Source: Deltaproteobacteria bacterium
GTDB lineage: Bacteria; Desulfobacterota; Desulfomonilia; Desulfomonilales; Desulfomonilaceae
Direction of reading: 5' to 3'
NCBI GenBank assembly: GCA_016875095.1
Contig: VGSG01000009.1
Coordinates: forward strand, 1-64,000
Length of the DNA stretch: 64,000 bases
Position 1 is the stretch's first letter; every line of letters begins with the position of its first letter. Below are positions 4,717-23,733 of this stretch, in pieces. The translations under genes were made by a program, and so were the position numbers. The notes beneath the pieces are model-generated. The model was given only the letters and a program-made list of their open reading frames with translations. It did no database searches and was not told the DNA's origin.

Positions 4717-5190
4717 ATGCCGAAAAACGAAAAAAAGGAAGATATGAGCGTGGAAGAAAAGGTCATGATCTTCGTTGTCATGGCTTCCGAGTTGTTCAAG
4801 AAGAATTCCACAGCCATCTTCGGCCAATACGGGCTCACTTTCTCGCATTATAATGTTCTCAAGTCCCTTGTCGCATGTGAAGGTGGCCGGGACACGGCGG
4901 GCAACGTCAGCAAGCGTATGCTGGTAACAGGCGCGAACGTGACCGGACTTGCCAAACGAATGGAGAAAGCAGGACTGATCGAAAGAAGGAACGACGAGAA
5001 AGACGAACGCCTCACCATGCTGCAAATCACTAAGAAGGGACGGAAAGCGCTCGATGCAATTCGTGAGATTCAGGAAAAACATGTCAATGAATATATGCAG
5101 ACCTGCTCCCGGGAACAGAAAGAGGAACTCCTTACCGTTCTTAAGAGCATCCTCCGAAAAGGCAAGCAACTGGCCGGATCGAAATACTAA
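4717..5190 (+). CDS. MarR-family transcriptional regulator
   Basis: About 157 residues with a winged helix-turn-helix. The recognition region is visible in HYNVLKSLVACEGGRDTAGN and in the wing ERRNDEKDERLTMLQITKKG, which is the MarR family signature. The gene starts about 40 bp after hcrA and is probably co-transcribed, so it is likely the local repressor sensing an aromatic acid or its CoA thioester. ATG 4717 is taken as start; a TTG at 4687 and an ATG at 4744 (after AAGGAAG) are alternatives. A candidate binding site is the palindrome at 785-796. Confidence 0.85.
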   Translation: MPKNEKKEDMSVEEKVMIFVVMASELFKKNSTAIFGQYGLTFSHYNVLKSLVACEGGRDTAGNVSKRMLVTGANVTGLAKRMEKAGLIERRNDEKDERLTMLQITKKGRKALDAIREIQEKHVNEYMQTCSREQKEELLTVLKSILRKGKQLAGSKY

Positions 5191-18154: not shown

Positions 18155-19222
18155 ATGACAAAAGTAATGATCCATCCCGCTACGTACGAGAATGTCCGCC
18201 AGGCTGTTGACCGAGCCTTTGAGATCTTCCCGGTGGATGTTCAGGGCAAGAAGGCGCTGATAAAGCCCAATGTGCTCCGGGCTTCGCAGGCGTCAGAAGC
18301 TATCGTCACCAATCCTCAAGTTCTTCGCGCTGTTGTGGAAAAAGTGGAAACGCTGCGGCCCGCGTCCCTGATTGTGGGAGATAATCCCGGTCTTTTCAAT
18401 TACGGCGCGAACGAAGAATGTTTCAGAATGACAGGGCTGCTTGAAGCTTCCAAAGGATATTATCTCAACATCGGTAATGATTCGCAGAAGCTTGATTTCA
18501 ACCCGGATTTCATGCCCGCGGTGAGCGTTTCTCGATCCGTGCTGGACGCGGACGTGATCATCAGCCTGCCGAAGTTCAAGACTCACGGCCTGACCGTCAT
18601 GACCGGAGCGATCAAGAACTGTTACGGCTTCTTGCCCGGCGCTCAGAAAGCCAAGTTACACAAGGCCGCGGGCAATCCTGAGCGCTTCCACGAAGTTATC
18701 GTGGATGTGTTCCGGCTCCGACCGCCCGATTTGTTTATTGTAGATGCGGTGGTCGGTATGGAGGGCAACGGTCCTGCTTCTCCTGACCTACGAAACATCG
18801 GCCTGGTGCTCGCGTCCGACAATGCTGTGGCTTTGGATGCAGTTATCGCGACCATGATGGGTTGTGATCCGGCTCGACTGCGATTCCTCCAAAAGGCCAA
18901 GGACGAGGGCCTGGGCGATTACGACCTGAAAAAAATAGAGCTCATCGGTGAACTAAAACCTATACGCGATTTCAAGCTTCCTCCTTTGGGCGGAGAAGCG
19001 ATCATCCGCAACGAGAACATACAAGCCGTCATTCATTCGCGGACCATCTTGCGACCTCAGGTCGAACCTGACCTGTGCACTGCATGCGAAACCTGCGTGG
19101 ATCAGTGCGCGGTATCCGCGTTGTCGATGGACAATGGGCTCCCCGTAGTCGATGCGGACACTTGCATCACGTGCTTCTGTTGCCAAGAGATGTGCCCCGA
19201 AAAGGCGATTACGCTGAAGTAG
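18155..19222 (+). CDS. DUF362 protein with C-terminal 2x[4Fe-4S] ferredoxin domain
   Basis: 355 residues. Residues 1 to about 290 are the DUF362 domain (KKALIKPNVLRA, VGDNPGLFNYG, ADVIISLPKFKTHGLTVMTGAIKN). The end is a bacterial ferredoxin with CTACETCVDQC and CITCFCCQEMC, eight cysteines for two [4Fe-4S] clusters. Such fusions are common in strict anaerobes and are thought to act in electron transfer or cluster handling, but the reaction is not established. A GGAGGTGTAGGCC ribosome site precedes the ATG. It follows the aldehyde dehydrogenase by 122 bp on the same strand and might accept its electrons. Confidence 0.85.
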   Translation: MTKVMIHPATYENVRQAVDRAFEIFPVDVQGKKALIKPNVLRASQASEAIVTNPQVLRAVVEKVETLRPASLIVGDNPGLFNYGANEECFRMTGLLEASKGYYLNIGNDSQKLDFNPDFMPAVSVSRSVLDADVIISLPKFKTHGLTVMTGAIKNCYGFLPGAQKAKLHKAAGNPERFHEVIVDVFRLRPPDLFIVDAVVGMEGNGPASPDLRNIGLVLASDNAVALDAVIATMMGCDPARLRFLQKAKDEGLGDYDLKKIELIGELKPIRDFKLPPLGGEAIIRNENIQAVIHSRTILRPQVEPDLCTACETCVDQCAVSALSMDNGLPVVDADTCITCFCCQEMCPEKAITLK

Positions 19223-19290
19223 CCGATTTGTTCTTTTCCGAAGTGATAGGAAGTCGGTTGGGAGAAGCTTGGACCGGCCGGCCTGACGCT

Positions 19291-19317
19291 GGGCATTGCT
19301 CCACTCTCGCAATGACA
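19291..19317. repeat. Short copy of the TCATTGCGAG/GAAGCAAT repeat
   Basis: GGGCATTGCTCCACTCTCGC followed by AATGACA is, when reverse-complemented, a shorter version of the repeat at 16175-16213 (TCATTGCGAG ... GAGCAATG). It is a dispersed-repeat relic after the DUF362 gene. Confidence 0.45.
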
Positions 19318-19367
19318 CGGCCGCCGGATCCGCCCCAGTGTAAACCTATAGTCAAGAAAAATCAGAG

Positions 19368-19397
19368 TTGACTCAACCGACGACGGTGGGGTATGGT
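19368..19397 (+). promoter_or_regulatory. Candidate promoter for the small TGA-containing gene
   Basis: TTGACT at 19368-19373 and TATGGT at 19392-19397 are 18 bp apart and end 53 bp before the ATG at 19451. The boxes match sigma-70 sites moderately. This suggests that the small gene has its own transcript rather than depending on the DUF362 gene. Confidence 0.4.
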
Positions 19398-19450
19398 CTT
19401 CACCTATTGGAATGGCCGGATTTTGATTTATGACGAAAGGAGAAGACATA

Positions 19451-19720
19451 ATGCTAACCAAATGTGCCACGCTACTTGTTCTTATGGCAGCGGTCGCTTT
19501 CGTGACCGCGCCCTGTATTGCGGAAGCTGCTTGATTTGGCTGTTTCCCCTCCTGGTCAGGAGGAACATCGTACTCAGCCGGCTCCTACTACGGCGGATAC
19601 GGAGCCTACGGATATGCTCCGGGGGTTTACGGTTACAACGTTGTCCCCGGTTCCGTGAAACGAACCGGCAAGTCTACCAAAGCCAAAACCGAGAAACCCA
19701 AGGCCAAGCCCGCGCAATAG
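19451..19720 (+). CDS. Small exported Gly/Tyr-rich protein with in-frame TGA; candidate selenoprotein
   Basis: A perfect ribosome site (AAGGAG, 8 bp spacing) precedes ATG 19451. Codons 1-27 encode a clean signal peptide ending in PCIAEAA. Codon 28 is TGA (19532-19534), then the frame continues without another stop to TAG 19718-19720: FGCFPSWSGG, a Tyr/Gly-rich segment (residues about 40-65, SYYGGYGAYGY) and a Lys-rich tail. If TGA is selenocysteine, the mature protein starts with a U-x-x-C redox motif. A hairpin at 19548-19563 (CCTCCT, loop GGTC, AGGAGG) lies 19 nt after the TGA, the place and loop type expected for a bacterial SECIS. Alternatives: a pseudogene (TGC or TGG mutated to TGA) or only a 27-residue peptide. 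No family recognised. Confidence 0.5.
19548..19563 (+). promoter_or_regulatory. SECIS-like hairpin downstream of in-frame TGA
   Basis: A 6-bp perfect stem CCTCCT/AGGAGG closes a GGTC tetraloop (19554-19557). Bacterial SECIS elements lie in the coding region just after the UGA and need a G-containing apical loop; the fdhF element of E. coli also presents GGUC. The distance from UGA to the loop is 19 nt. The hairpin could also be chance, since the arms encode ordinary Pro-Ser and Gly-Gly codons. Confidence 0.4.
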
Positions 19721-19772
19721 CGAGAGGTGAGGGCAGGGCGCTACGGGGCTGGAGGAAAGTAGATCCGAACTT

Positions 19773-19810
19773 GCGGGAACCCCTTTTTCGTGTGAAAAAG
19801 CGGTTCCCGC
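19773..19810. terminator. Strong bidirectional terminator hairpin
   Basis: GCGGGAACC and GGTTCCCGC pair perfectly, and CTTTTTC and GAAAAAG extend the stem with one C-C mismatch and a GTGT loop. It separates the small exported protein gene (+) from the activase gene (-), the last gene of the large minus-strand cluster. It probably stops transcription from both sides. Confidence 0.75.
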
Positions 19811-19837
19811 ACCCTCGCAAGAAGCGCTATCCATTCC

Positions 19838-20623
19838 TTATTGTGCGTGGGCGCTCATGTCGCGGGCGATAAGGGCTGCGCCCAAGGCGCCCACAATCTG
19901 AGGTTCTTCGGGCACGTTTATCCGTCCGCCCACCTTTTCTCTGATTTTCTCCACGATACCGGTGTTCTTGGCCACACCGCCCGTCATGGTCACTTCCATC
20001 CGTATGCCCACAGCGTCCATCAATGGCGCGAGGCGGTTGCATATGGATTGATGAATTGCATTGAGTATGTCTTCTTTCGGTGTGGCGCGAGCCACCAGTG
20101 AGATGACCTCGGACTCGGCGAATACAGTGCACATGCTGCTAATGGATATGTCACGGGTGGACCTCATTGAGAGCGGGCCCATCCGGTCCAGGCCGATTTC
20201 CAGGGCCCGCGCCATTACTTCCAAGAATCTGCCCGTGCCCGCGGCGCATTTGTCGTTCATGCTGAAATCCGCCACTTTTCCGTCTTGTGAGACGCTGATG
20301 ACCTTGCTGTCCTGGCCGCCGACATCAATTATGGTTTGTGTTGCGGGAAAAAGATGAACAGCTCCCCGCGCATGGCAAGTGATTTCGGTCACGGTTTTGT
20401 CGGCAAAAGGTATACTTACGCGGCCGTAACCGGTAGCCACGGTGAAGTTCACTTCAGATTGAGCGATGCCGCCACTCGCCAAAGCCGCGGCAAATGATTT
20501 CTCACCGGCTGTGCGACTGTTCGCGCCGGTGGATGAAATGTGGTACGAAACCACCGCGCCCGCATGGTCGAGGATCACGGTCTCGGTGCTCAATGAGCCC
20601 ACGTCGATTCCGACGAAATACAT
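19838..20623 (-). CDS. BadF/HgdC-type ATPase, 2-hydroxyacyl-CoA dehydratase activase
   Basis: 261 residues of the ASKHA-fold activase family. The phosphate loops are FVGIDVGSLSTETVILD at 3-19 and IDVGGQDSK. The two cysteines that hold the shared [4Fe-4S] cluster of the homodimer are seen in NDKCAAGTGRF and SSMCTVFAESEV. It hydrolyses ATP to push one electron into the dehydratase, starting its radical cycle. The gene is 7 bp after a CoA ligase and in one cluster with both dehydratase subunits. Only one such ATPase is present, which argues for a dehydratase activase rather than the paired ATPases of a benzoyl-CoA reductase. Confidence 0.9.
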   Translation of the reverse strand: MYFVGIDVGSLSTETVILDHAGAVVSYHISSTGANSRTAGEKSFAAALASGGIAQSEVNFTVATGYGRVSIPFADKTVTEITCHARGAVHLFPATQTIIDVGGQDSKVISVSQDGKVADFSMNDKCAAGTGRFLEVMARALEIGLDRMGPLSMRSTRDISISSMCTVFAESEVISLVARATPKEDILNAIHQSICNRLAPLMDAVGIRMEVTMTGGVAKNTGIVEKIREKVGGRINVPEEPQIVGALGAALIARDMSAHAQ

Positions 20624-20630
20624 TTTCGCG

Positions 20631-22433
20631 TTACCTGGAGTCGTCGTACAACGATTCCAATAAGGGCGCGTACTTATCTTTTATGACCTTGCGCTTAAGC
20701 TTCAACGTGGGCGTAATCTCACCCTGTTCTTGGGAGAACTCACACGGGAGGATCTCAAACTTCTTGATCGTTTCGAAGCGCGCAAGGTCCGTGTTGACCT
20801 TTTCGATTCCTTGGCGGATATGTTCGCGTATTTCCGGGCTGCGCGTCAGTTCCTCGTAAGTCTCATACGTGATTCCTCGGTCTTTCGCCCAAGCGTCGGT
20901 TTCCGCGCGATCGAGGGTGATGAGAGCGATAAGGTAGTTCTTCTTGTCTCCATACACCAGCGGAAGCGATACCAGAGGAATCCTCTTGAGCTGGTTCTCG
21001 ATGTTTTGCGGCGCGATGTTCTTTCCGCCCGAAGTGATGATGAGATCTTTCTTCCTATCGGTGATCACGAGAAAGCCGTCTTCGTCCCATCGGCCCACAT
21101 CGCCTGTGTAACACCACCCGTCTCTCAACACTTCCGCAGTCAGTTCGGGCTTATTATAATAACCCATGAAATTGTTGCCTCGGATAAGAATCTCGCCGTC
21201 GGGCGCGAGCTTCACTTCCACTCCCGCCATGGGTTTGCCCACTGTGCCAAAGCGGCGCTCCTCGAATGTAGTCATGGTCCCGGAAATTGTCTCCGTGAGC
21301 GCATAGAATTCCAGCACATCTATCCCCATACTGTGGATGAACTCTCCTACATCAGCGGAAAGAGGCGCTCCGGCAGACACGGCAAACGTCAGCCTTCCAC
21401 CAAGGAGATTACGGATCTTTTGAAAAACCAACCGATCCGCCACGTTACACTTGAACCTGAGCCACGCGGACATGGGCAAGCGAGCTGTGATCTTTCTGCT
21501 CCTTTCGCGGCCGGCTGCCATGGCCCAATGGAATATTGATCGCTTAAACGGCGAGCCCTTTTCCGCGGCGCCGACAATCCGGTCATACACTTTCTCGAAG
21601 ATGCGAGGAACACTGGTGAAGTACGTAGGTCGGGTTTCCATCATGTTCTGACCCACGGTGTCGATGGATTCGGCTATCGCGAACGGAATGTTCATATAGA
21701 TGTTGTAATAATATCCCGAGACGCGAGGGTAAAGATGTGATATGGGAAGGATCATGAGGGAGAAGTTGGTCTTGGGATCGATCTTGATCAATTCGTGAAT
21801 CGACCAAAGAACAAATGCGATATTCCGGTGGCTGATCATGCAGCCTTTGGGCGGCCCGGTAGTGCCCGAGGTGTATACGATTGTGGCCATGTCATTGATA
21901 TTGATGCCGCTGATGCGACGCCGCAGCTCTTGTTGACTTCCGTCTCTGACGCGTCGGCCCTGTTCAACAAGCTCGGCAAACGTAATGACTCGCCCGTCGT
22001 CTTGTGAGACTGTTCCTTCAATAAGAACGATCTTGGACAGTTTCGGCAATTCGTGGACGTGGAGGAGGATCTTGGCGAGCTGAGTGACATCTTCAACAAC
22101 AGCGAAGGCGCAGCCCGAATCGCTCAGGATGTATGCTGCCTGTTCCGCGGTGTTCGTATGATAGATCGGCACGCCCACCCCGCCGGCGAGCAGCGTCCCC
22201 AGGTCCGCGACGATCCATTCGAGACGATTGAACGACATTATGGCAAGGCGATCCCCGGGTTGCATCCCGATATTGAGCAGGCCGCACGCGAAGGCTTCCG
22301 ACGCTTCCCTCAGCTCCGCCCAGGTCAGGTCGGTGTATTGCCCACCCTTTTCCCGCTTGTGCTTGATGATGGTCTCATCCTGAAACTTACTTGCGTTTTC
22401 TACGAACGCTTCGACGATGGTCTTGTGCGACAT
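20631..22433 (-). CDS. Long-chain-type acyl-CoA ligase (AMP-forming)
   Basis: About 600 residues from ATG 22433 (SHKTIVEAFVENASKF). The AMP-binding P-loop IVYTSGTTGPPKGCMISH, the hinge GDVGRWDEDGFLVITDRKKD and a late Lys (TLKLKRKVIKDKYAPL) are all present. The layout, with the large insertion and VPRIFEKVYDRI, is that of FadD15/long-chain ligases that act on bulky acids. The upstream frame to 22694 is open but resembles nothing and overlaps the preceding gene, so it is not included. It lies between the dehydratase and its activase, and probably activates the acid that this module processes. Confidence 0.88.
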   Translation of the reverse strand: MSHKTIVEAFVENASKFQDETIIKHKREKGGQYTDLTWAELREASEAFACGLLNIGMQPGDRLAIMSFNRLEWIVADLGTLLAGGVGVPIYHTNTAEQAAYILSDSGCAFAVVEDVTQLAKILLHVHELPKLSKIVLIEGTVSQDDGRVITFAELVEQGRRVRDGSQQELRRRISGININDMATIVYTSGTTGPPKGCMISHRNIAFVLWSIHELIKIDPKTNFSLMILPISHLYPRVSGYYYNIYMNIPFAIAESIDTVGQNMMETRPTYFTSVPRIFEKVYDRIVGAAEKGSPFKRSIFHWAMAAGRERSRKITARLPMSAWLRFKCNVADRLVFQKIRNLLGGRLTFAVSAGAPLSADVGEFIHSMGIDVLEFYALTETISGTMTTFEERRFGTVGKPMAGVEVKLAPDGEILIRGNNFMGYYNKPELTAEVLRDGWCYTGDVGRWDEDGFLVITDRKKDLIITSGGKNIAPQNIENQLKRIPLVSLPLVYGDKKNYLIALITLDRAETDAWAKDRGITYETYEELTRSPEIREHIRQGIEKVNTDLARFETIKKFEILPCEFSQEQGEITPTLKLKRKVIKDKYAPLLESLYDDSR

Positions 22434-22488
22434 GGCATTCTCCGACTGCGACAGCGGTCTTAATTCCACACACGGCTTGCGGAGGGCT

Positions 22489-23733
22489 CTAACTCTTCCT
22501 CGCCAGCAGCATCTCCATGAATGCGTCGACTCTTGTCCGGAATTGTTCAACGGAAAAGTTCCGGCTGTCCATATGGTCCGCGTCGATGACAATCGAGGGG
22601 ATGCCAAGCTCAGCCTCGAGCGCCCGTTTGATATCCATCTGGCCCAATGTGATAGGAAGGCACGATTTGTTGCGATGAAGTATTGCCCCATCAATGGAGT
22701 ATTCTTTGCACGCCTTGATCACCATTTCCACCCGCTTGTCCACCGACACGCAGGAAACCATTGGATAAGATTTGAGGCTCTTCAAAGCCAAGGCTTCGAT
22801 GGGACGATTTACGTCCAGGCGCAGGGACCAGGCCGAAGAGTAAGTCTCGGCAACCACGACGCCTCCCATGCCCTCGAAATGGTTGAACAGGCCCATGTTG
22901 TACCACAGCGGTATGTTGTCCCAGAACAGACGTATCTTTTCCTGTTCCAAGACACCAAGCCCTTGCGCGGACTTCTCCTTCACCTCGTCCCTTACGGTGG
23001 TGAGGAAGTCCACCGCGGTCTGCGTTCCCTGACGGGTTACCATGACAAACATGATCCCGATTTCCGCCGCGGAAAACGGGGTCGGTATGCGGCGACGGTA
23101 GGTCATGATCTCGTCCCACAGCTCGCATGAGCGGTCGGAGAGCTTCACCACCTCCTTGAGTCGGTCCTGGTCGAGCTTTCTGCCTGTGGCCTGTGAAAGG
23201 AAATCGATCAAGCGGTGGATTTCAGCGATAGCGTAATCCACGTGATGTTGGCGGATCTCCTCGGTCGGGACCTGCGGCAGGTCCGCGGGGTAGACCTTGG
23301 CGTTGGGGAACCGGCGCTCCAGCGCCTGGAAGATCTTGATCACCGGGACGCAGCCGCCCCCGGGTGAGAGCAGTATATCCGGCTCGGGCAGGCCGCCCAA
23401 AGGCGTTCCTTCTTCCTTCATGAGGCCATGCACGTACCCGATGATGTTTCGCATGTACCCGCACAGGTCACGGGAATAGCCCATGCCTTCCGCAACTTCG
23501 AAGTTTCTTTCCGCGAGTCCGAATGCTGCGCAGATTGGTGACCAGTTCTCAGGAAAGACGGGCTGAATGTCCATGGCATAGAATATTTCAATGGCGCCGT
23601 TCATGGGAGGCATCCAGCCAACAGGCTTTCCCTCAGCCTTTGCTCGGCCGCATTCCACATAGTATTCCGTCACCACCCGGTTCAACTCTTTGGCCGCCCT
23701 AAGCCTCTTTCTGGATTTCCCGGTCTTCTCCAT
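22489..23733 (-). CDS. 2-hydroxyacyl-CoA dehydratase subunit (HgdB/BcrC family)
   Basis: 414 residues of the D-component family. The three cysteines that ligate the [4Fe-4S] cluster are in the usual places: ENWSPICAAFG, SRDLCGYMRN and HRNKSCLPITLGQ. GWMPPMNGAIEIFYAMDIQPVF is the common early stretch. With its partner it removes water from a 2-hydroxyacyl-CoA by a ketyl-radical mechanism after one-electron priming. It starts 7 bp after the partner gene. Family members also reduce aromatic CoA esters, but the single ATPase nearby favours dehydration. Confidence 0.88.
   Translation of the reverse strand: MEKTGKSRKRLRAAKELNRVVTEYYVECGRAKAEGKPVGWMPPMNGAIEIFYAMDIQPVFPENWSPICAAFGLAERNFEVAEGMGYSRDLCGYMRNIIGYVHGLMKEEGTPLGGLPEPDILLSPGGGCVPVIKIFQALERRFPNAKVYPADLPQVPTEEIRQHHVDYAIAEIHRLIDFLSQATGRKLDQDRLKEVVKLSDRSCELWDEIMTYRRRIPTPFSAAEIGIMFVMVTRQGTQTAVDFLTTVRDEVKEKSAQGLGVLEQEKIRLFWDNIPLWYNMGLFNHFEGMGGVVVAETYSSAWSLRLDVNRPIEALALKSLKSYPMVSCVSVDKRVEMVIKACKEYSIDGAILHRNKSCLPITLGQMDIKRALEAELGIPSIVIDADHMDSRNFSVEQFRTRVDAFMEMLLARKS

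Follow-up and report, generated by a model that had tools for sequence, protein, structure and literature searches.

The gene at positions 19451-19720 of the window, by which we mean the whole 64,000-nt stretch analyzed, very probably encodes an exported selenoprotein, decoded at UGA and belonging to a hitherto undescribed family. Its status as a selenoprotein we consider close to certain, even without experiment. The window corresponds to contig C9 in a genome of 4.7 Mb with a completeness rating of 100%. The predicted mature form has an [A/G/S]-Sec-x-Gly-Cys head, a disordered Tyr/Gly/Ser stretch, and a basic tail. Judging by the genomes scanned, and only those, the family appears limited to Desulfomonile-like bacteria and almost never occurs in a Cys version. 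The features of the locus are as follows.

19437-19442, plus strand: ribosome-binding site AAGGAG, 8 nt before the ATG, read from the sequence
19451-19720, plus strand: very probable selenoprotein gene of 89 aa with Sec at codon 28 and a TAG stop, based on the frame through the TGA conserved at 12 loci and downstream dN/dS of 0.11-0.29
19451-19528, plus strand: signal peptide with predicted cleavage between A26 and A27 (A24-E25-A26, then A27-U28), based on the small-x-small pattern
19532-19534, plus strand: UGA very likely read as selenocysteine, based on TGA in 12/12 type A and 5/5 type B loci and Sec machinery in the genome
19532-19564, plus strand: conserved head U-F-G-C-F-P-S-W-S-G-G, with U28, G30, C31, P33, S34, W35, and G37 invariant in the alignment
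19548-19563, plus strand: putative SECIS hairpin (CCTCCT stem, GGTC loop, AGGAGG stem), near-invariant at the DNA level with frozen Ser codons
19565-19657, plus strand: coding region for the Tyr/Gly/Ser-rich low-complexity stretch, predicted to be unstructured
19658-19717, plus strand: coding region for the Lys/Pro-rich basic C-terminal tail, from sequence and alignment
19772-19811, no strand assigned: near-perfect palindrome between convergent genes, a probable transcription terminator

Much of the anatomy proposed in a first-pass annotation of this DNA was confirmed, including the strong ribosome site (AAGGAG, 8-nt spacing to the ATG at 19451), the in-frame TGA at codon 28, a further 61 sense codons before the TAG at 19718-19720, and a 6-bp hairpin with a GGTC loop, separated from the TGA by 19 nt. 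AGGAG-type sites also precede the ATG or TTG starts of homologues. The annotation had further proposed a signal peptide with the TGA exactly at the signal-peptidase site and a mature protein beginning U-F-G-C. The signal peptide stands and supports export of the predicted protein, but the cut is predicted one residue before Sec, from a small-x-small pattern seen in 16 of 17 family members, and Sec is thus probably residue 2, not 1. We rejected a lipoprotein with Sec replacing the lipobox Cys ([LVI][ASTVI][GAS]), as 15 of the 17 have E, F, G, or P at position -3; only two members fit (L014, VAS; L219, VAG). The suggestion that the gene has its own promoter rests on no more than two 9/12 consensus matches (0.3 expected). 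The structure that the annotation took for a strong terminator is a near-perfect 17-bp palindrome (-28.9 kcal/mol, z = -5.7), which the scan did not call as an intrinsic terminator on the plus strand. By eye, many homologues also have a hairpin-like repeat soon after the stop.

Searching 18 genomes of the order turned up homologues of this gene, which we call type A, at 12 loci; these belong to 11 genomes of the Desulfomonilaceae, counting this one. The TGA occupies the same codon in all 12, and the consensus consists of a signal peptide, [A/G/S]-U-x-G-C-[FS]-P-S-W-[SG]-G, a Ser/Tyr/Gly-rich stretch, and a Lys-rich tail. Downstream of the TGA, dN/dS was 0.11-0.29 in ten pairs (Nei-Gojobori, 53-67 codons compared), similar to or below upstream values. 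The frame through the TGA contains no other stop, and frames +1 and +2 are stopped in most homologues. Frame +2 is open in the window and in L004, so the window alone would not decide the coding frame. A search of the contigs with the single protein gave no match, probably because the protein is short and of low complexity, and a 395-genome sample of the phylum contained no further member outside the order. Marginal matches in two genomes of that sample (G054 and G228) were read and rejected as chance. Low-scoring loci (L013, L139, L148, L154, L158, L171-L175, L177, L181, and L182) and a SECIS-model match (L197) were also rejected, as they lacked a signal peptide, the family motif, or a coherent frame. 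One of these, L171, has at 318-419 (G006:C92) an ORF for a tiny exported Cys/Gly-rich peptide (AGCGCGGGGGK...), similar in layout and unrelated in motif.

A second, paralogous subfamily, type B, is present in five genomes including this one, with the motif U-C-G-P-x-F-W-x-E-G and a TGA in all five loci. The first sign was a weak match in G014 with a signal peptide, a TGA, and a GGTC hairpin. Type A and the G014 locus were combined into a covariance model, which recovered a locus in G011 (G011:C1:3765844), which encodes ...LSGAA-U-CDFAFWAEGPSYFQG, a protein clearly related to that of G014 (BLASTP E 5e-10). A profile of these two sequences found three more loci at E < 0.001, in this genome, G010, and G015, each with one in-frame TGA after a signal peptide. 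The copy in this genome (L217, G000:C93:3250-3348) lies outside the window and reads G-G-U-C-G-P-T-F-W-E-E-G-P-S-Y-F. In this genome, G010, and G015, the type B gene is flanked by tyrS and a small conserved gene, and G014 shares the latter; these neighbors are uninformative for function. Alignment of the type A and type B profiles gave a probability of 94%, to which the signal peptides contribute. Common descent of the two types is likely on this evidence, although not proven. At least one family member of either type was present in 14 of the 18 genomes of the order.

Third codon positions are frozen in the hairpin downstream of the TGA. Across its codons, CCC TCC TGG TCA GGA, Ser is TCC at 12/12 loci and TCA at 11/11, whereas all six Ser codons occur in the remainder of these proteins (TCC in 25/108). 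In L008, the TCA codon is lost and the stem is re-formed as CCCUCC-UGG-GGAGGG. The type B hairpins (UCCUUCU-GGUC-GGAAGGA and CCUUCU-GGGC-AGAAGG) have stem letters partly different from type A. Taken alone, the hairpin has no more stability than shuffled sequence, and the case for it therefore rests on conservation rather than energy; in some homologues, the 42 nt folded in isolation give a different minimum-energy structure. Covariation in the SECIS alignment is thin, with one two-sided change, a level reached by 39 of 500 shuffles. An Rfam search returned nothing relevant. Published bSECIS rules call for a loop of 3-9 nt with G in the first two positions, a stem of 4-16 bp, a spacing of 16-37 nt, and an MFE <= -7.5 (PMC13188914); the window hairpin meets them, with a 4-nt GGUC loop, G first, 6 bp, 19 nt, and -10 kcal/mol.

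The four genes that the first-pass annotation proposed to look for, selA, selB, selC, and selD, are all present in this genome (SelA, E 2e-150; SelB, E 5e-117; SelD, E 5e-105; tRNA-Sec, 70.6 bits). SelD proteins carry a catalytic Sec or Cys near the N-terminus, and selD of this genome has an in-frame TGA in this region, indicating that Sec decoding is in use in this genome. Across the order, SelB was above cut-off in 18/18 genomes and tRNA-Sec in 16/18. We infer that Sec insertion at the window gene is very likely, a statement that rests on sequence alone. We also noted a second SelB gene in G011, which is probably the genome of Desulfomonile tiedjei (DSM 6799), beside a tRNA-Sec-like gene (L233, G011:C1:3558000-3572000). 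This 92-nt gene, at 4735-4826 of the locus, has an anticodon read by ARAGORN as GCA (Cys). A comparable second pair occurs in G012.

We scanned 84,980 species with a DNA motif allowing Sec, Cys, or Trp at the position. Nine of the 91 matches had a signal peptide and the family's downstream sequence; all nine carried TGA and were Desulfomonile-type loci. Neither a Cys orthologue nor a TGG (Trp) version of the motif was found in these species, although the scan would miss Cys forms with a different motif. The annotation had proposed a search for Cys homologues (C-F-G-C); close homologues with C-x-G-C were absent among the species scanned, and the homologues carry TGA. Its test for refutation by Trp at this position turned up no such homologue. 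The one Cys relative is a divergent paralogue in G012 (L015), which reads C-A-C and lacks the hairpin.

Two readings would deny selenocysteine at this codon. Were the TGA a true stop, the gene would yield only a 27-residue signal-peptide-like leader, and the rest would be pseudogene or untranslated RNA. In its favor, TGA serves as an ordinary stop in the rest of the genome, and the hairpin alone is not unusually stable. Against it stand protein-level purifying selection on the downstream codons of independent pairs, the TGA frame alone staying open in most homologues, and the same TGA at 12 loci, which decay would not keep. We give this reading very little credence; on comparative grounds, selection and the open frame strongly disfavor a pseudogene or untranslated tail. 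Degenerate copies in relatives, which the annotation had named as grounds for refutation, were not seen, as the copies are intact and under selection. Alternatively, a code change or near-cognate read-through could place Trp or another ordinary amino acid at the TGA. We found no supporting evidence for this, and the complete Sec machinery, the conserved SECIS-type hairpin, the lack of any TGG homologue in the 84,980 species, and the loss of the hairpin in L015, where alone among the relatives a sense codon (Cys) stands at the corresponding position, leave it barely credible. The selenoprotein reading is upheld by the TGA, hairpin, and flanking residues conserved at 12 loci and by selection on the downstream frame.

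The window gene resembles E. coli FdhF-type SECIS decoding in its UGA, its downstream mini-hairpin with a GGUC-type loop, and the presence of SelA/B/C/D. In E. coli fdhF, a GGUC-type loop has near-identical spacing and lies one nucleotide nearer the UGA than in the window. The predicted protein is neither a formate dehydrogenase nor a member of a listed family, and has no thioredoxin-like fold. The U-x-x-C spacing of type A recalls UxxC thiol-disulfide selenoproteins (thioredoxin, glutaredoxin, DsbA/TlpA-like), but here the motif lies N-terminally in a mature chain of low complexity, and type B has U-C. We found no thioredoxin-like domain around UxxC, either by Pfam/NCBIfam match or as a domain fold in a low-confidence model (six sequences; indicative). 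Two of 11 members matched ExtJ of a selenite/tellurite reduction operon (NF040942) below cut-off (best E 0.045), but the match is not significant and the Ext operon context was not seen. Like the sulfur globule protein (PF17228), the predicted protein is exported and Tyr/Gly-rich with low complexity; only one member matched that model (E 0.0014), the match is composition-driven, and PF17228 has no Sec head.

We propose that SelB and Sec-tRNASec would decode UGA codon 28 as Sec, directed by the E. coli-like mini-hairpin (GGUC loop, 19 nt). The precursor would then be exported and, as inferred from the cleavage pattern, trimmed by signal peptidase I so that a single residue is left ahead of Sec. 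The mature protein would open with [A/G/S]-Sec-x-Gly-Cys and continue as a disordered Tyr/Gly/Ser-rich chain ending in a basic tail. No fold emerged from structure prediction, with pLDDT mostly below 50 from a shallow alignment of only six sequences, so the inferred disorder is indicative. The Sec/Cys head is inferred to be most likely a redox pair (selenenylsulfide) or a soft-metal(loid) ligand in the cell envelope, and could either switch between the selenol-thiol and selenenylsulfide states or bind a soft metal(loid); the basic tail may keep it near anionic surfaces. Taken by itself, this redox or soft-metal(loid) role is an even call. The annotation had inferred an exported redox protein of unassigned family. 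No Pfam or NCBIfam model matched above its cut-off, and the redox function remains inference. No fold, informative gene neighbor, or characterized homologue points to a specific biochemical role.

Other roles for the selenoprotein deserve weight. Its Tyr/Gly-rich chain might assemble in the envelope or on mineral or sulfur granules, with Sec/Cys crosslinking or anchoring it rather than acting as a redox catalyst. Low-complexity composition, the lack of a predicted fold, and the weak resemblance of one member to the sulfur globule model fit such a structural role; however, composition-driven similarity is unreliable and conservation is strongest in the UxGCFPSW head, so we hold the idea to be unlikely, though not negligible. 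The protein might instead bind and sequester periplasmic metal(loid)s such as arsenic or mercury. An N-terminal Sec/Cys pair suits soft metals, and one type A copy (L127, G009:C105) is divergent from genes for an ArsR/SmtB-type regulator, an unknown 239-aa protein, an ArsG-like permease, and an arsenite methyltransferase. This arsenic gene set is suggestive only. It occurs at one of 12 loci, neighbors elsewhere being unrelated, and we are doubtful of a dedicated metal(loid)-binding role. Tentatively, and at somewhat under even chances, we regard the family as near Sec-obligate, non-thioredoxin exported selenopeptides in which selenium at residue 2 of a disordered, basic-tailed chain would serve as an N-terminal hook, either for metal(loid)s or for redox crosslinking; a functional Cys counterpart may not exist.

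No entry in a table of 119 selenoprotein families (2026 review, PMC13188914) matched, and none of these families has selenium N-terminally in a secreted Tyr/Gly-rich protein that appears to be unstructured. According to the deep-Sep paper, Cys homologues now seem to exist for every known selenoprotein, and selenoproteins without them may be lost in the filtering of its method (PMC12013277). A family in which nearly every member has Sec and the one Cys relative is divergent can escape pipelines of this type, and further families may therefore go unnoticed. In the open literature, with subscription literature and GenBank annotation outside our scope, we found no paper joining Desulfomonile tiedjei with selenoproteins. 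If G011 is that genome, this cultured relative carries both subfamilies, making the prediction testable.

Type A neighbors differ among loci and include an acyl-CoA dehydratase activase, RimO, a release factor, and a TolC-type protein. Around the window gene, 18155-23733 holds genes for a DUF362/ferredoxin-like protein (by eye), an acyl-CoA dehydratase activase, an acyl-CoA ligase, and a 2-hydroxyacyl-CoA dehydratase subunit. The type A gene of several Desulfomonile genomes also has an acyl-CoA dehydratase activase gene beside it in divergent orientation, but this activase is a different, large one, and the arrangement may be coincidence.
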